This document shows, piece by piece, positions 1,554-15,521 of a stretch of DNA of 30,261 nt. The DNA lies in the IMG/VR virus record IMGVR_UViG_3300046718_000342, positions 1 to 30,261 of that record. One strand, given 5' to 3'. A model generated the notes under the pieces. It searched no databases, was not told the origin of the DNA, and saw nothing but the letters and a program-made list of their open reading frames with translations. The DNA comes from a virus. Numbering within the stretch: position 1 is the stretch's first letter; each line of letters opens with the position of its first letter. The position numbers and the translations under genes are program-made.

Positions 1554-3647
1554 CTACCAGGTGACGCCTGCCAGCCAGGCCACGGTGCCAGTGCGCCGGA
1601 TAAGCCAGTTGATAGGCAGGATCAGCCGCAAGGCCAGCATGTCAGTCTGGAACATGGACTTGGCCGGATAGGCCACCACAGCCGGGGTGCCAGCCGTGCT
1701 GATGTCGGTCGGGCTAGTATCATCAAAATGTAGCGTAGCCTGATCCGAAATTTCGAAGCGCGGCCCATCACCAGTGACGCTGACGAAATCAGCGGCATCG
1801 ACCACGATGACCGTGCCTGCTGGCACTGTGCCGCTGTCGATGACCGGCCAGCCACTCAAGGTGCCTCGCCCAATTTCATCGCGGAACGGAAACACACCAG
1901 CTCCTGGTGCTGCCACCAGGCCAATGCTGTTGACCTGGGCCGGGTTCATCAACCAGACCGGATTTCTGATGTTGCCCAAAGTGCCGGTCAGCAATGCATT
2001 GGTCAGCTGCTTGATGTCACCGGTCAATGCATTGAAGCCACCGCCAGCGGTTGGCGTCAGTCCTGACACGCCGTTGAGGATACCGGCAGGCCGGATGGTG
2101 GTGGATGCGTTGGTGTCCAGCAGCACGCTGTCGAGTGACACCGCCGTATCCATCTGGATGGCTTCGCGCAACAGACCCTCGATGGCCGGGATTGAATGCT
2201 CATCAATTTCCCTGGTCCATGTGGTGATCACCGCCATTTTTTTCGGGGTGAGTGTCTGCGAGGTGAAGGCACCTTGACGAACCGGGATTGGCAAACCTTC
2301 ACCGACGAACGAACCCGCGATAGTTGGGGTGCGGCTCCTGGTCGGAATGACAATCTTGCCATTGCGGCCAAAGCTGAGCGTCAAGCCGTAGCCGGAAAAG
2401 CGCGGGAACACCGATTTCGGCATCAACGTTGACATGAAATCGACAACGATCTGCTGCACCAGCTCGGCGGCCCAGCCCACAGTTGTCGTCATGGCAGGTG
2501 CACTTGCTGCCTTGGTCTGCCACTCCACCACAGCCCTGGTTGCTTCATCATCGCCATAGACCGCGCGTGTCACATCGATGACCGACTTGCGTTGGCTTTG
2601 TGCCAGTGCCAGCAAGGCACCGGATCGGCACAGCAATTCAAGCGGTGAGACTTTCTTTGCTGCAACACTGAATGGCCGAGGCGATGGCACTATCGCTGGC
2701 GAAGCGATCGCGCGCGGCACCAGGGCGCGGCCGCCATCATCACTGGCTGCACCAATGTTGCGCTCGGAGTCGCGCAGGGCTGCCAGCAATCTTTCATCCT
2801 TGGTGATTTCAGCATTGCTGGTGTTGATCTTCTCGATGTCCTCATCGCTATAACCGGCATCACCTTTGCCAGCATGGAAGGCAGCAAGCTTGTCTTTCTT
2901 TTCAAGCAGTTGCTTTTCGCCATCAGTAATTCTTTGAGCCAACGACATTGTCGTGCCCTTTCCGTTCATCTTTTTGGGATCGGCATGCCCGCCGGTTAAC
3001 CCGCGTTGCAGCAGCTCATTTCTTTTGCCATGCCCGGCGAAAATGAGACGCTGCGTTTCGGGTGAAATCTTCAGAGACTTGGCCACAGCCAATGCATTCG
3101 GATTGGCCGGAACAGAAACCAGTGAACACTCGAACAATTTCTGCTTGGTGAATTTGTAGCCGCTGAATGGGTTTTCCTTATCCAGCGGTTCATATTCCTC
3201 CGGCCGGAAGCCGACACTGACCGCGCGCAAAAATCCCTGCTCGACCAGGCTGATGATTTCATCAACGCGCGGTGATGTTCCTTTTTTTGCCAGCTGTAAT
3301 GTGCCGCGCAGCTGCTTGTTTTCCACGCGCACATTCTTCCAGCCGCCGATGACGAAATCACTTTTGTGGCCGAACAATGCAATGGGGTTTTTCTCGGACT
3401 TAAAATTGTCCAGCCCCCATCCGTCCTGTATGATGATGTCGCCCATCAGGTCTTTCGTTTCGTCACTCATGACGAACTCGAGGCCGTCAACCTTGTCCTG
3501 CAGATGCTGTTTGCGAATGAGGCCGCCTGCGCTGCGTTCCTCATCCCAGATTTCCTGGCAATCATCCTGGTCCAGCTCCAGGGTGCAGCGGTCCATGAAA
3601 TCGGAATAATCCTCATCATCATCCGGTGGCGGCATTTTCTGGTTCAT
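1554..3647 (-). CDS. Prohead protease-major capsid protein fusion (HK97 fold)
   Basis: One 697-residue frame carries two head functions. Residues ~55-200 are an HK97 gp4-like prohead protease: FGHKSDF contains the candidate catalytic His94, AVSVGF the candidate Ser144 (about 50 residues apart, as in the family), followed by ECSLVSVPANP. Residues ~230-300 (LAQRITDGEKQLLEKKDKL and on) are a coiled-coil delta/scaffold-like region. Residues ~320-697 are an HK97-fold coat domain, with VKWQ-like helix, WLMNPAQVNSI and the P-domain strand near the end. I chose ATG 3647, preceded by AAGGA; the frame stays open upstream to 3695 without a better start. Cleavage by the protease domain probably releases the mature coat. 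The 713-codon maximal frame has no internal stop, so the fusion is not a sequencing error visible here. Confidence 0.92.
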   Translation of the reverse strand: MNQKMPPPDDDEDYSDFMDRCTLELDQDDCQEIWDEERSAGGLIRKQHLQDKVDGLEFVMSDETKDLMGDIIIQDGWGLDNFKSEKNPIALFGHKSDFVIGGWKNVRVENKQLRGTLQLAKKGTSPRVDEIISLVEQGFLRAVSVGFRPEEYEPLDKENPFSGYKFTKQKLFECSLVSVPANPNALAVAKSLKISPETQRLIFAGHGKRNELLQRGLTGGHADPKKMNGKGTTMSLAQRITDGEKQLLEKKDKLAAFHAGKGDAGYSDEDIEKINTSNAEITKDERLLAALRDSERNIGAASDDGGRALVPRAIASPAIVPSPRPFSVAAKKVSPLELLCRSGALLALAQSQRKSVIDVTRAVYGDDEATRAVVEWQTKAASAPAMTTTVGWAAELVQQIVVDFMSTLMPKSVFPRFSGYGLTLSFGRNGKIVIPTRSRTPTIAGSFVGEGLPIPVRQGAFTSQTLTPKKMAVITTWTREIDEHSIPAIEGLLREAIQMDTAVSLDSVLLDTNASTTIRPAGILNGVSGLTPTAGGGFNALTGDIKQLTNALLTGTLGNIRNPVWLMNPAQVNSIGLVAAPGAGVFPFRDEIGRGTLSGWPVIDSGTVPAGTVIVVDAADFVSVTGDGPRFEISDQATLHFDDTSPTDISTAGTPAVVAYPAKSMFQTDMLALRLILPINWLIRRTGTVAWLAGVTW
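2946..2963 (-). promoter_or_regulatory. Possible internal ribosome-binding site and ATG inside the protease-capsid fusion
   Basis: On the minus strand GGAAAGGG (2963-2956) sits 7 nt before an in-frame ATG (2948-2946) at the protease/delta-domain junction. Initiation here would give a separate ~464-residue scaffold-plus-coat polypeptide beginning MSLAQRITDGEK. Another in-frame ATG lies 21 nt upstream with poorer spacing. The sequence match is direct; use of the site is inferred. Confidence 0.45.
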
Positions 3648-3660
3648 GGATTTGTTTCCT

Positions 3661-3753
3661 TCAGCAGCAGTCACCAATGCCGGATAGCCAAACACCCAGG
3701 ATCACGGCACAGATCATCAGCAGGATCAGCACCAGCCATGAGCCATTATTCAT
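3661..3753 (-). CDS. 30-residue single-helix membrane peptide
   Basis: This is a very short gene. The peptide begins MNNGSWLVLILLMICAVI, continues LGVWLSG and ends in GDCC. Residues 6-26 form one clear transmembrane helix, and the two C-terminal cysteines could be lipidated or form disulfides. ATG 3753-3751 overlaps the TGA of the upstream gene (ATGA), and the stop lies 13 nt before the protease-capsid ATG. The tight overlap on both sides and the hydrophobic composition argue for a real gene. A longer in-frame extension upstream would be an out-of-frame shadow of its neighbour. Function is unknown; a membrane peptide inside a head operon is unexpected. Confidence 0.6.
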   Translation of the reverse strand: MNNGSWLVLILLMICAVILGVWLSGIGDCC

Positions 3754-4147: not shown

Positions 4148-5794
4148 TCAACCAATAAGTGCTTCGATGTCGACTTGGCGGATGCGATCGCGCGAGCGCA
4201 GGCCCATCAGCATGGCCAGGGTCACGGCACCGTCGATGCGCATCCTGGATTTTTCTTTGTCGAGTTTGCGATTGCCGACCGGGTCCATGACCGCAATCGC
4301 ATTCGCCATATTCCAGCTCAGGCAGGGATTGTTGGGATGGATTAGCTTGCGATCTTTGATTGCGATTTCCAGGGCATCAATGGCCGGAGCCATATCCTTG
4401 AAACCTTGACCCCAGGGCACCAGCCTTAGCCCGTCACCCTTGTCACCATCCTTGTGCGTGGCAAAGCCGATGCGGTCAAACTCGCGCAGCAAATCATCAA
4501 TGCGCCATCTATCATAAGCCAGGGCGCGCACGTTATAGACCTGGCTCAGCTCAGCAATGCGGCTGGCAATGACTTGCTTATCGACTGACTTTCCGGGTGT
4601 GGTTTCAATGTGCCCGGCATTTTTCCATTCCAAGTAGCGATAATTGCCTGAGCCAAAATCCCTGAAGCTTTGTTCACCTAACGGGTCATCCGGCTTCCAG
4701 AAATATGGCTGGATGCGCGCCACATCATCGGTTGAACACATCAGCAGCGCGGTCAGGTCCAGCACATTGGACAGGTCAAGCGCCAGGTACACTTCTTCGC
4801 CTGGTGTGAATTGAACTGCCCCGGCGCAAGCCATCCATTCGGCGCGGCTGATCAAGGTTGCTGCTGGTGACACCCTTTGATTGAGCAGCAGGTTCCTGAC
4901 TTTCGGTTCCTCGGCAGGCATGCGCTTTGCCTTGTCGATGGATGCCACGAAGTCATCACGGTCTCTAAAAATTCCCAGGGCCGGGTTGGCTTTTTCCCAT
5001 TGCTCCTGGTCATCCAGGTCACAATCCTCATCAGCTGCGAACAGGTGGCAGACGATGGTCGGATCCTCACCCAGCCCATCATCAATCAATTGGCTCAGAA
5101 CATGCTCAGGATCATTGCTCTGCGTGGAAATGACAATGAACAGCGGCTCGCGCGCAGCACCGAAAGAAGTATCCAGCACATCATAGAGGTCGCGATTTTT
5201 GGCCTGGGCCAGCTCATCATAAATCACCAGGGTGGGCAGGTATCCATGCTTGGTCCCGGCCTCGGCAGATATGGCGCGGTACATCGACCCCATGCTCCTA
5301 ACCAGCATGGTCTTGGTGGAGGTGATGATTTCCACCTTGCGGTGCAGCTCGGGTTCGAGCTCAACAATCTGCTTGGCAAATTTGAAGATGATGCCAGCCT
5401 GGTCGCGATCATTCGCTGCTGAATAGATTTCACTGTTGTGCCTGGCTTCAGGGCCAACCAGGTGCGCCAAAGCCAGGCAGGCAATCAATGCGGTTTTGCC
5501 ATTCTTGCGCGCCATCGACAGGATGGCTCGCCTCACCACACGTCTGCCATCCGGCAGCGCGGGTTCATAAATGTCGCGGATAAAATCTTTCTGCCACTTC
5601 TGCAGCTTGAACAGCTCACCCTGGCCGTTGCCGCTGGGCACGGTCAGACATTCGATGAAATCAATAACATCCTTGGCGCGCTGCCTGCTGTCCTTGGTGC
5701 GCTTAACCCGCGAGGATGAGGTTGCCAAACTTGCTTTCCGCCACTTCGCTGTTGCTGGTGGAAATGCGTGACCTGGCTGCAGGGGTGAAGCCAA
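4148..5794 (-). CDS. terL: Terminase large subunit (Terminase_1 type)
   Basis: This is the ATP-driven DNA packaging motor and nuclease that cuts concatemers and pumps DNA through the portal. The 548-residue frame shows a Walker A-like SMARKNGKT (residues 93-101), Walker B LVIYDE (189-194), the coupling motif STQSN (223-227), and RNase H-like nuclease acidic residues Asp340 (LALDLS), Asp428 (AYDRW) and Asp521 (RIDGAV). Length is normal for the family. The ATG at 5794 overlaps the small-subunit gene by 92 bp and has a weak ribosome site; a TTG at 5728 behind GGAAAG is a credible alternative. It follows the small subunit in the usual order. Confidence 0.96.
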   Translation of the reverse strand: MASPLQPGHAFPPATAKWRKASLATSSSRVKRTKDSRQRAKDVIDFIECLTVPSGNGQGELFKLQKWQKDFIRDIYEPALPDGRRVVRRAILSMARKNGKTALIACLALAHLVGPEARHNSEIYSAANDRDQAGIIFKFAKQIVELEPELHRKVEIITSTKTMLVRSMGSMYRAISAEAGTKHGYLPTLVIYDELAQAKNRDLYDVLDTSFGAAREPLFIVISTQSNDPEHVLSQLIDDGLGEDPTIVCHLFAADEDCDLDDQEQWEKANPALGIFRDRDDFVASIDKAKRMPAEEPKVRNLLLNQRVSPAATLISRAEWMACAGAVQFTPGEEVYLALDLSNVLDLTALLMCSTDDVARIQPYFWKPDDPLGEQSFRDFGSGNYRYLEWKNAGHIETTPGKSVDKQVIASRIAELSQVYNVRALAYDRWRIDDLLREFDRIGFATHKDGDKGDGLRLVPWGQGFKDMAPAIDALEIAIKDRKLIHPNNPCLSWNMANAIAVMDPVGNRKLDKEKSRMRIDGAVTLAMLMGLRSRDRIRQVDIEALIG

Positions 5795-6197
5795 ATTCGC
5801 TTGCGAACCTCACCATGTCCTGGGCAGCCTGCCTGGCTGTCAGCAGCACAGGATTTTGCAAGGGTGTGCCATTGGCAGCTTTGATCATTAGGCCATGCAT
5901 CTGCGGATCACGCGCCGATATTTCGGTGAAGGCTTCAACGGCCATGCGCCACACGGCATAGGCCTGGCAGTAAGCAGCCAGCGGCTTGGTATCAACACGG
6001 CTCAACAATTTGAGGCGGTGCAGCTCCTGCGCCACCTCAATCCATTCCTCTTTGGCATAGCCAACCAGGAAGGGCGGCGGCTCCAGTGTTTGCGCAATGG
6101 CAGGCTGTGGCTCATCCCTGGGCAATGTTTGATGGCCTGGGTTGCCGCGCAACAATCTCAGATGCGTCGGCACCCGACGCGGCCCGCGTTTGCCCAT
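5703..6197 (-). CDS. terS: Terminase small subunit, P27 family
   Basis: The small terminase binds the packaging-initiation site and recruits the large subunit. The 164 residues have the family's characteristic start: a basic MGKRGPRRVPTHLRLLRGNPG, then PPFLVGYAKEEW, a helix with YCQAYAVWRMAVE, and the LTARQAAQDMVRFASEFGFTPAARSRI C-terminal block (quoted in parts) that marks P27/Terminase_4 proteins. Its 3' end overlaps terL. It lies directly after the glycosyltransferase gene with a 3-bp gap, so the modification and packaging genes share one transcript. Confidence 0.93.
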   Translation of the reverse strand: MGKRGPRRVPTHLRLLRGNPGHQTLPRDEPQPAIAQTLEPPPFLVGYAKEEWIEVAQELHRLKLLSRVDTKPLAAYCQAYAVWRMAVEAFTEISARDPQMHGLMIKAANGTPLQNPVLLTARQAAQDMVRFASEFGFTPAARSRISTSNSEVAESKFGNLILAG

Positions 6198-6200
6198 TGG

Positions 6201-7103
6201 TCAACTCACTGGTTGCAGCTTCACGGCAGAGTAGCGTTGCTGCTTGAGCTGCAAGCCATATTCATTGATGCCATCAGGCACAGCCACACCAGGTTTTTTG
6301 AGCAGCTTGTTATTGGCAAAAGGCCTGTAGTCAACAAAGTGGTGCCAGCGGCCAAATTTCCAGACCACCTTGGCCACATCAGGATGCATTTTCACCAGCA
6401 GCTGCGACTTCGGCAACGTGCCCTCTTTGACATAAAATTCATCGGTATTGCCACCGGTCATCCTCTGTGTGCCGATCTTCTTTTGCAGGAAGGCATTGAA
6501 TTGGATGGTGCACCAATGCTCTTTCAGCATGCGCAGTGAAAGGTCGGTGTCCTCGTTGTATCTGCCGCGCCATTCAAACGGCACATCGTTGCGGATCAGG
6601 CTGCAGCTGTAGATGCGGGAATTGAGAATGATGGGAAGGTGCTTTTTCTTGCGCGGTGTAAACAGCTCATAGGCAGGACCAGCCATGGCCACGTTTTTGT
6701 AACGCAGACAGAAATCTTCCATGCATCTGAAAATGGTGCCGTCGCCTGCGGCAGTCTTGTGGTTCTGGTTGAGCCTATAAAAGCCAGCAATGTTGTCATC
6801 CATGATCCAATGCCAGGCATGGCCCTGGCCAATGGCATGCGCCCAGGCAAAATTCCTGGCTGGGCCTGGTCCTTTGCTCAAGCCCTGGTCATCACCAGCA
6901 GGATCACAGGTTTGATATTTCTGCTGGTACTGCTCAGGCAGCACCAGCAGCCTTGATGGATCAATCACTTGGGAATAGGCAGCCAGCTCCTGGTGCTCGA
7001 CTATCACCAGGTAAGGAACACCCATTGCATCGAGGTGCCTCATGGTGAGGCGGCTGGCTGCTCTGCCCTTGGAGCAAATATAAACTGGAAATTGCGGGTT
7101 CAT
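6201..7103 (-). CDS. TET-associated glycosyltransferase (TAGT family)
   Basis: TAGT enzymes are GT-A-like phage glycosyltransferases found in clusters with TET/JBP dioxygenases and thought to add sugars to 5-hydroxymethylcytosine in phage DNA. The 300 residues contain the family's run of motifs: VYICSKGRAASRLTM at the N-terminus, LLVLPEQY (52-59), GPARNFAWAHA (80-90), the metal/nucleotide-sugar motif WIMDDN (99-104), NVAMAGPAYELF (137-148), WRGRYNEDTDLSLRML (178-193) and KIGTQRMTGGNT (209-220). Length is typical and the motifs look intact. It sits between a ParB-like gene and terS, with the ATG next to the ParB stop. The exact sugar and base are not readable from sequence, and no dioxygenase or cytosine methylase lies in the window. 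Confidence 0.88.
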   Translation of the reverse strand: MNPQFPVYICSKGRAASRLTMRHLDAMGVPYLVIVEHQELAAYSQVIDPSRLLVLPEQYQQKYQTCDPAGDDQGLSKGPGPARNFAWAHAIGQGHAWHWIMDDNIAGFYRLNQNHKTAAGDGTIFRCMEDFCLRYKNVAMAGPAYELFTPRKKKHLPIILNSRIYSCSLIRNDVPFEWRGRYNEDTDLSLRMLKEHWCTIQFNAFLQKKIGTQRMTGGNTDEFYVKEGTLPKSQLLVKMHPDVAKVVWKFGRWHHFVDYRPFANNKLLKKPGVAVPDGINEYGLQLKQQRYSAVKLQPVS

Positions 7104-7739
7104 TCATTCCGCGGCGGATTGAAATTGCTGCTCAACATAACTTTCATCATCGACAGGTGGCACCCAAATGAATTTCGTCTTGTCGGTGAGCTGCTGGCCA
7201 ACCTGCTGACAGAATTGCTGCACAGCTTCGGCATCCTTGAAATGAACAATCAGAGTGCGGAAGGCATTTTTGGCGTTCTGCTGAAACTCAGGCATGCCCA
7301 CCCATTCAGCCAGCGGGTTATTTTCCGGCAGGCCGAAGGCTTCAATCTCGTTCTCGGTGAAGCCGGTGAGCAGAGCATCAAAGCCAAGCGTCTTGAGGTC
7401 GGCCATCTCCAGCTGCAGCAATGACTGATCCCAGCTGGCATTTTCTTGCAGCTTGTTGTCGGCAATCAGATAGGCGCGCTTCTGTGCTTCTGACCAGCCG
7501 CGAGCGACGATAACCGGCACCTCAGCCAGCTCCATCCTCTCGGCAGCCATCACCCTCCCATGGCCAGCAATGATAACCCCACGCTCATCCACCAGCACCG
7601 GAGTGGTCCATCCCCATTCACGGATGGATGCCATGATTTGCTGGATTTGCGCTTCCGAATGCAGACGAGCATTGCGGGCTGACGGGACAAGCGACAGCGT
7701 TGCCATCCTCTCAACTTTGTCAGCAGGCCAAGGCTTCAT
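7104..7739 (-). CDS. ParB/sulfiredoxin-fold protein paired with TAGT
   Basis: This encodes 211 residues. Residues ~15-100 form a ParB N-terminal-like domain: LVPSARNARLHSE, ASIREWGWTTPVLVD, then GVIIAGHGRVMAAERM (ligand-binding GHGR at 59-62) and RAYLIADNKLQENASWD. The C-terminal part (FRTLIVHFKDAEAV, LTDKTKFIWVPP) is a separate small domain seen in phage ParB-like proteins. ParB-fold domains bind CTP in classical ParB, and related ones accompany phage DNA-modifying enzymes. I chose ATG 7739, which has GAGAGGGG about 11 nt upstream; the frame stays open to 7901, including an in-frame ATG at 7829. The stop abuts the TAGT start, so the two are likely co-translated. Confidence 0.85.
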   Translation of the reverse strand: MKPWPADKVERMATLSLVPSARNARLHSEAQIQQIMASIREWGWTTPVLVDERGVIIAGHGRVMAAERMELAEVPVIVARGWSEAQKRAYLIADNKLQENASWDQSLLQLEMADLKTLGFDALLTGFTENEIEAFGLPENNPLAEWVGMPEFQQNAKNAFRTLIVHFKDAEAVQQFCQQVGQQLTDKTKFIWVPPVDDESYVEQQFQSAAE

Positions 7740-14414: not shown

Positions 14415-14509
14415 TGCGGGTTTTCAGCTCATGTTCCCCAACAGGGACATCGGCGGGCAACTCGCCCGAACCGGTTGCGGGAGCCGTCAATTCCCGAAAG
14501 GAGTCGTGA
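14414..14509 (+). CDS. 31-residue candidate ORF with P-x-GTS..NSP motif
   Basis: ATG 14414 shares its A with the Gp157 stop (TGATG), and the ORF stops one base before the next gene. The peptide starts MRVFSSCSPTGTSAGNSP and is polar. Its SPTGTSAGNSP core matches PSGTSLNSP in another tiny ORF at 16838, with differences mainly at third codon positions. A second overlapping frame (ATG 14431, 27 codons) also ends on the next gene's ATG, so which frame is translated is open. Two short inverted repeats lie here as well. Confidence 0.35.
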   Translation: MRVFSSCSPTGTSAGNSPEPVAGAVNSRKES

Positions 14510-14510
14510 C

Positions 14511-15521
14511 ATGAGTGAAGCCAGTGAAGATAAAGTTGTTCCGATCAAGACATCGGCAGCCGATCTGTTGCGAGCCAAGATCACGGAAATTGCAGCAGGT
14601 GCTGGCGAAGTTGATCGCAATGCGGTTAGCAAGCTCGTCAAGCGGGCAGAAAACTCTGGTTATAGCGCCGAGATTTCGACGCTTACACCGGGAATGTGTG
14701 CGCTGTTGTTTCTGTTTCACAACAGCCATAACCGCCCCTGGTCAGCTGGGTGGAGCGAGGAACTGGCGCGCCGCATGAAAGCCGGGGCATGGAAACAAAA
14801 TTCCATGTCTGCTGGCTTTTACAAGGATGGATTGCTGGAAGATGGTCAGCATCGACTGGCAGCAGCAGCAATCTCAGGCACCACATGGACCATCGTTGTG
14901 GTTTTTGGTGTTGAGCAAGGAAGCGTTGACACCATTGACGGCGGACGCCGCCGGTCCGGCGCTGACCATGCCTTACTTGATGGCATTGCCGACCCGTCCA
15001 AAAAACAGGCCATCGTCAAAACTGCTGCGAACTACTTTGTTCGCAGTGGCAATAATGCAGCTGCGCTCAGGTCCGAGGCAGAGGTGAAAACTGCAATTGA
15101 GGCGAATGATGCACTCTTAGTGCAAGCCATCGAAATCGGTGCACAGTCGCGGGAGCGGGTTGGCTCTCCGCAATTGAAAGAAAGCACGGCATCAGCCATT
15201 GCCTACATCATGATGAAAAGTGGCTGGCCCATGCAGAGCATCCGGGAAAAGCTGGCGTATATGCAGCAGTCGTCCGGCTCAACGGTAAGCGACAATGATC
15301 CGTTCTTTGTCACCGGCCAAATGCTTATTGCCAGCAGAGCAAAAACAGCCAGAGGTGAAAAGCTGACCACCAATAAGGAAATTGGCTACGTCCTGTTTAC
15401 CTTTATAGAAACCGAAAGGGGCGTCAAAGCTCTACAGAAAAAGCGCATCGTGGATGCGGTGAAAAAATCGCTTCCTGATCCGCGCTATCCAATCGACGTG
15501 GCCCGCGAGGTTGCGGCGTAG
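14511..15521 (+). CDS. ParB/Srx-fold-like phage protein
   Basis: This encodes 336 residues behind AAAGGAG at 7 nt, so I prefer ATG 14511 to an in-frame ATG at 14475. The core LLEDGQHRLAAAAISGTTW, then VVFGVEQGSVDTIDGGRRRS, is a ParB-like nucleotide-binding motif (DGQHR) followed by the IDxGRRR signature of a phage protein family. The rest is helical, with a basic C-terminal region (KKRIVDAVKKSLPD). It is the second ParB-fold protein in the window and may bind DNA during replication or partition. Function is inferred from fold only. Confidence 0.78.
   Translation: MSEASEDKVVPIKTSAADLLRAKITEIAAGAGEVDRNAVSKLVKRAENSGYSAEISTLTPGMCALLFLFHNSHNRPWSAGWSEELARRMKAGAWKQNSMSAGFYKDGLLEDGQHRLAAAAISGTTWTIVVVFGVEQGSVDTIDGGRRRSGADHALLDGIADPSKKQAIVKTAANYFVRSGNNAAALRSEAEVKTAIEANDALLVQAIEIGAQSRERVGSPQLKESTASAIAYIMMKSGWPMQSIREKLAYMQQSSGSTVSDNDPFFVTGQMLIASRAKTARGEKLTTNKEIGYVLFTFIETERGVKALQKKRIVDAVKKSLPDPRYPIDVAREVAA

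Follow-up and report, generated by a model that had tools for sequence, protein, structure and literature searches.

A small constant partner domain, optionally joined to ParB, accompanies a phage TAGT glycosyltransferase encoded beside the terminase genes

Here, we show that a TAGT glycosyltransferase encoded beside the terminase genes of a phage has a small domain, X, as its constant partner, and not ParB, whose ParB_N module is optional. The enzyme is encoded in the window, a 30,261-base linear IMG/VR fragment that spans the whole record (Table 1). With a probability of roughly one half, we propose that the two adjoining genes specify a TET-independent, ParB-X-assisted glycosyltransferase of two chains, ParB_N-X and TAGT, which acts on phage DNA late in infection.

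Table 1. Features of the ParB-TAGT cassette and the adjoining terminase genes in the window
Feature	Position	Strand	Description
Terminase large subunit (TerL)	4148..5794	-	PF20441 (6e-29) and PF03354 (1.5e-22); ATPase and nuclease domains
Terminase small subunit (TerS)	5703..6197	-	next gene in the TAGT operon; PF05119 (Terminase_4), E=1e-24
TAGT glycosyltransferase (PF20691), predicted GT-A fold	6201-7103	-	300 aa; PF20691, E=3e-41
TGG motif, residues 215-217	6453..6461	-	G216 and G217 invariant in 25 aligned members
NEDTD motif, N182-D186	6546..6560	-	N182, E183 and D184 invariant, T185 and D186 nearly so, in 25 aligned members
DDN motif, D101-D102-N103	6795..6803	-	invariant in 25 aligned members
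ParB-like gene	7104-7739	-	ATG start, 211 aa; the mechanically called ORF already begins at TTG 7901
Domain X, ~65 aa, residues ~144-211	7107..7310	-	signature W.GMPEF.Q...VHF...F..L..Q..T.KTK.IW.P
ParB_N domain, residues 1-135	7335..7739	-	PHROG 620 (5e-50); PHROG 498 (DNA methyltransferase, 1e-46)

The first-pass annotation of this DNA had placed a TAGT gene against a ParB-like gene, directly upstream of terminase, and the coordinates bear this out exactly. The TGA stop of the ParB-like gene stands directly against the ATG of the TAGT gene (..GAATGA followed by ATGAAC..), the TAGT stop is followed after 3 bases by the TerS ATG at 6197, and the cassette lies immediately upstream of terminase. 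Since the ParB-TAGT pairing is found again in many unrelated viruses, it is not a matter of chance. The window also encodes integrase, amidase, and baseplate genes, recognized by Pfam, together with a partial frame taken as portal by inspection, which synteny with the relative L008 supports, and a homolog of GcrA, an alphaproteobacterial cell cycle regulator carried here by the phage (11121-11678, minus strand; PF07750, 1e-20). These genes mark the phage as temperate-type, with an alphaproteobacterium as its probable host. A single 713-amino-acid frame (1554-3695, minus strand; PF04586 and PF05065) joins the prohead protease to the major capsid protein. Another protein, of 348 amino acids (14475-15521, plus strand), contains a ParB-like DGQHRLAAA motif and matches no Pfam family convincingly; it is possibly a second ParB/Srx-fold protein of the early region.

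The assignment of the glycosyltransferase as a genuine TAGT with DDN, NEDTD, and TGG motifs proved sound. In a Pfam profile search, it matched PF20691 with 142 bits against a curated cut-off of 27.5, and it also matches PHROG 842, "beta-glucosyl-HMC-alpha-glucosyltransferase" (E=7e-44). The DDN motif is the probable metal/nucleotide-sugar site, and NEDTD probably provides the catalytic acidic residues. A GT-A fold is supported by the model of the relative L125 (pLDDT 90), which matches GT-A enzymes such as COLGALT1; for the window's TAGT, the fold assignment rests on this model and the invariant motifs. A search of PDB sequences with the TAGT profile gave no credible match, and PADLOC returned no defense-system match for TAGT. 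Human GREB1 has a TAGT domain (PMC6163654), and the family is therefore not confined to phage DNA.

The ParB-like protein consists of two modules, ParB_N and, at its C-terminus, domain X. An AlphaFold model of the whole protein (pLDDT 87) has the ParB-CDP structure 6sdk as its best PDB match in Foldseek (8e-8), and the Pfam ParB_N score on the window protein is sub-threshold (23.4 versus 26.3 bits). In ParB_N, N23 and G59 are invariant over 34 diverged members, R25 and G43 are also conserved, and the pocket motif of the window's protein reads GHGR. Residues 3-133 match the PADLOC model MTase_II (3e-35); we took this match to a type II methylase model as a shared domain and rejected it as a defense system. 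A plasmid partition (ParABS) ParB was likewise rejected, considering that the C-terminus is X and not a ParB dimerization domain and that no ParA family was seen among the Pfam-scanned proteins of the window, the record being a fragment. X itself has no convincing match in Pfam, PHROG, or NCBIfam, where it returned noise only, and no description of it was found in the open-access literature searched.

TAGT relatives were gathered from IMG/VR and GTDB genomes and dereplicated at 90% identity to 91 loci. TAGT was adjoined by or fused to X in 86 of these, comprising 43 loci with ParB-X followed by TAGT, 31 with X only and TAGT, 11 with X and TAGT in one open reading frame, and a single one, L125, in which ParB, X, and TAGT form one frame of 673 amino acids. 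ParB_N was present in 44 of the 91 loci. ParB, earlier proposed as a cofactor of the TAGT, is thus linked to it physically, but the constant partner is the domain at its C-terminus. In reverse scans with X and with ParB-X, taking the best 80 loci per scan, TAGT was present at each of the 153 X loci whose flanks were long enough, and 4 further X loci were cut off at a contig end. A role of X as a general DNA modification domain was rejected, because within the same best 80 loci per scan every sufficiently flanked X locus carries TAGT. With a profile built from relatives, X was also found fused in front of TAGT in the cultured phages Aeh1, PTm1, and Kuja and in the Vibrio phages 1.076.O and 1.124.O; X alone as a tblastn query against named phages gave no match, probably because it is so short. 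The single-chain L125 model (pTM 0.81) has PDB matches to both ParB and GT-A structures. By the usual fusion argument, the X-TAGT fusions suggest that ParB-X and TAGT, two proteins in the window, would assemble into a single complex.

Some relatives carry additional genes in the cassette. A gene for a radical SAM/SPASM protein, a potential source of an unusual sugar or base acceptor, lies between ParB-X and TAGT in L008 (8774-9877). Four other loci (L066, 1775-5291; L042, 2479-3288; L099, 9938-11853; L022, 10001-11691) include GT1 with NAD epimerase, SAM methyltransferase, or tandem TAGTs, an indication that the glycans may be longer or decorated.

ParB_N of the window is also related to modules in methylase, Mom, and TAGT cassettes (41-68% identity). 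It shares 68% identity with the N-terminal part of a ParB-N6/N4-methylase fusion in phage ctOK67, encoded directly before terminase, and homologous modules occupy the same slot in the methylase fusions of ctOK67 and pOW20-A (47-68%) and in Psychrobacter phage Y8A, where ParB (41%) is accompanied by Mom (PF25680, E=1.8e-55). In these phages, unlike in the window, the slot encodes an N6/N4 methylase or Mom as the writer rather than a glycosyltransferase, and X is missing. The Y8A Mom homolog, encoded by the gene after ParB (L149, 4593-5246), is labeled "hypothetical protein" in its record. Gordonia phage CaiB has ParB, TET, a pyrophosphorylase, and other modification genes in this slot (PMC9302106). 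Its operon resembles that of the window in beginning with the ParB gene and lying immediately upstream of terminase, whereas the window has no TET and CaiB uses other writers; the presence of X on the CaiB ParB was checked and rejected. Serratia phage eta has a ParB homolog and no modified bases (PMC3918226). The open-access literature searched yielded no account that treats the ParB/writer slot as a general scheme.

Among testable loci of the X-TAGT family, 29 of the 34 with the ParB form have a terminase gene within 4 kb, compared with 5 of 32 for the ParB-less and fused forms (Fisher p=1.5e-8, with kinship handled by 90% dereplication only). One ParB_N family with varied C-termini and writers in the same slot, and missing from half of the X-TAGT units, might be no more than a conserved recombination joint for swapping modification genes before terminase, without a role in modification, such that only X would matter to TAGT. 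We give this little credence in view of the conserved ParB_N positions and of in-frame fusions of ParB_N to writers, including the single-chain ParB-X-TAGT. Such a joint would in any case be compatible with X-TAGT as a DNA glycosyltransferase.

ParB also precedes members of a second TAGT clade, about 25-30% identical to that of the window, in E. coli Rac-type prophages, Lactobacillus phages jlb1 and c5, archaeal HHTV-2, Nocardia NTR1, and a Porphyromonas phage. As in the window, this ParB and TAGT unit sits before terminase in most cases, and within a few kilobases of it in HHTV-2. The ParB of this clade differs in that another conserved C-terminal domain, recognized when the sequences were inspected by eye, replaces X, and the adapter thus appears to be writer specific. 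At least 80% of the E. coli Rac-type unit is present in 885 of 5,426 complete genomes. In the Rac-type prophage of E. coli E28 (L154, 20001-21717), it consists of ynaK, flagged as partial, and a TAGT annotated as "GREB1-related protein," before terminase; K-12 type strains retain only 254 bases of the ynaK-TAGT unit.

Iyer and colleagues are said to have described TET/JBP-TAGT hypermodification operons in 2013. The first-pass annotation named one route for known relatives, in which TET/JBP acts after cytosine methylation to provide hydroxymethylcytosine as the acceptor. This is a known route but not the sole one: the TAGTs of T2 and T6 extend glucosyl-hmC built from a dCMP-hydroxymethylase pool (PMC13216743, PMC2993671). 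The T2/T6 beta-glucosyl-HMC-alpha-glucosyltransferase is, like the window's TAGT, a phage enzyme of PF20691 and PHROG 842 with a GT-A fold. It depends on dCMP hydroxymethylase and alpha-GT, whereas no PF00303 enzyme was seen in the window, and the window's TAGT is accompanied by ParB_N-X beside terminase in a temperate-type phage. Solitary TAGTs are not rare: PMC13216743 counts 288 of 753 phage genomes that have a TAGT but neither alpha- nor beta-GT, describes no partner in the passages concerned, and in 2026 singled these TAGTs out as possible new transferases whose substrate is not known. Those of Aeromonas phages Aeh1, 65, and phiAS5 are about 50% identical to the TAGT of the window, and PMC8056088 lists the Aeh1 glucosyl transferase as presumably DNA-modifying, with "unknown base" and no partner described in the passage concerned. 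Aeh1 has X, but differs from the window in that X is fused to TAGT, ParB_N is missing, and the gene does not lie beside terminase.

As the first-pass annotation had noted, TET/JBP and a cytosine methylase are missing from the window: none of its 30 Pfam-scanned proteins matched TET/JBP, a DNA methylase (C5-cytosine methylases included), or PF00303, and alpha-GT was not among their Pfam matches, obtained without a dedicated alpha-GT profile. Among 50 relative records, none had TET/JBP over the cut-off; one sub-threshold TET-like match (E=5e-6) occurred in L076 (record L082), an X-X-TAGT virus, and lacked confirmation from the CaiB TET query. TET was likewise found in none of 22 cassette-bearing host bacterial genomes and 5 phages (0/27), in a search without a positive control of its own, and in none of 7 named TAGT phages, where the CaiB TET control was detected at 6e-6. 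The best tblastn match of CaiB TET to all collected loci had an E value of 0.46. A C5-methylase was present in 4 of the 50 relative records and in none of the 7 named phages, and the thymidylate-synthase/hydroxymethylase family (PF00303) was found only in the four large phages Aeh1, PTm1, Kuja, and pv27. Phages c5 (31.8 kb), jlb1, HHTV-2, and NTR1 and an E. coli phage record contain no TET, C5-methylase, or hydroxymethylase family member; such small complete genomes weigh most, because many IMG/VR records are fragments. In summary, most of the records searched lack TET, C5-methylase, and hydroxymethylase.

That the partner genes lie in the part of the genome not covered by the window, one of the explanations first offered for the absent writer, was rejected as unlikely, since a relative covers this segment. 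On the L008/G003 contig, the two ends of the window fall at 13.8 kb and 26.0 kb, and the syntenic stretch of about 12 kb between them carries genes for tail tube, sheath, baseplate, and connector proteins. Supply by the host, a second explanation, is unlikely for TET given the 22 host genomes, although the host might provide a methylase. What remains of those options is that the writer is replaced or not needed. A classical pathway, in which an undetected, diverged, or host enzyme makes 5hmC or 5hmU and TAGT only glycosylates it, could draw on the thymidylate-synthase-family enzymes of the four large phages, which may include hydroxymethylases, on the C5-methylases in a few records, and on the L076 match, which is as strong as that of the true phage TET of CaiB. 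We judge this pathway improbable, considering the small complete ParB-TAGT phages without any of these families, the negative host search, the structural nature of the missing segment's counterpart, and the poor tblastn scores of CaiB TET.

Under the proposed DNA-directed mechanism, a single glycosyltransferase would be divided over the two chains, the complex being deduced from the fusions. X would be an obligate docking or accessory subunit of this TAGT clade and ParB_N an exchangeable module, employed by DNA methylases, Mom, and TET as well in the pre-terminase slot. The position of the genes suggests that the complex may be produced with the late operon, together with the packaging genes, and it would move sugar from a nucleotide sugar onto bases of phage DNA that has been replicated and is about to be packaged, in a reaction guided or licensed by ParB_N. 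The packaged genome might thereby resist host nucleases. DNA is the presumed target because of the company of ParB_N and of the T2/T6 TAGT biochemistry (PMC13216743). Since the usual enzyme for a hydroxyl acceptor, TET or hydroxymethylase, is not encoded, the acceptor would be something else, perhaps a base reached by another route or an exocyclic amine directly. A stricter version, in which ParB_N-X-TAGT is self-sufficient and places sugar straight onto a canonical base, e.g., at an exocyclic amine, with no prior hydroxymethylation and with sites chosen via ParB_N, seems to us quite unlikely. No chemical evidence of modified DNA was found for any X-TAGT or ParB-TAGT phage. Many T4 relatives without gene 42 were considered to have no major cytosine modification, and Aeh1 is among the phages for which gene 42 is not listed (PMC2993671); any modification may therefore be sparse.

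Further observations count against the proposed mechanism: about half of the X-TAGT loci have no ParB, the TAGT domain of human GREB1 lies outside phage DNA modification, and the second TAGT, GT1, sugar epimerases, methyltransferases, and radical SAM protein of relatives would also fit protein or other glycans. The TAGT might thus glycosylate a capsid, tail, terminase, or host protein, its neighborhood of terminase, portal, and head genes reflecting virion decoration, and the nearest solved GT-A folds include the protein glycosyltransferases COLGALT1 and POMGnT1. However, ParB_N is common to the slots of N6/N4 methylase, Mom, and TET, all of which modify DNA bases, the biochemically known phage TAGTs of T2 and T6 act on DNA (PMC13216743), and ParB-less X-TAGT mostly does not adjoin TerL. 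On this balance, we regard a protein target as unlikely.

Our analysis provides one clade of solitary TAGTs with a constant partner, X, and with a shared ParB module that ties it to cassettes built around methylase, Mom, or TET. The E. coli Rac-type prophages and the 31.8-kb Lactobacillus phage c5 emerge as tractable systems. Glycosylation of a base that has not first been hydroxymethylated would, if it proves true, add a new step to the known biochemistry, and a protein target, if this is what the enzyme modifies, would redraw the TAGT family.
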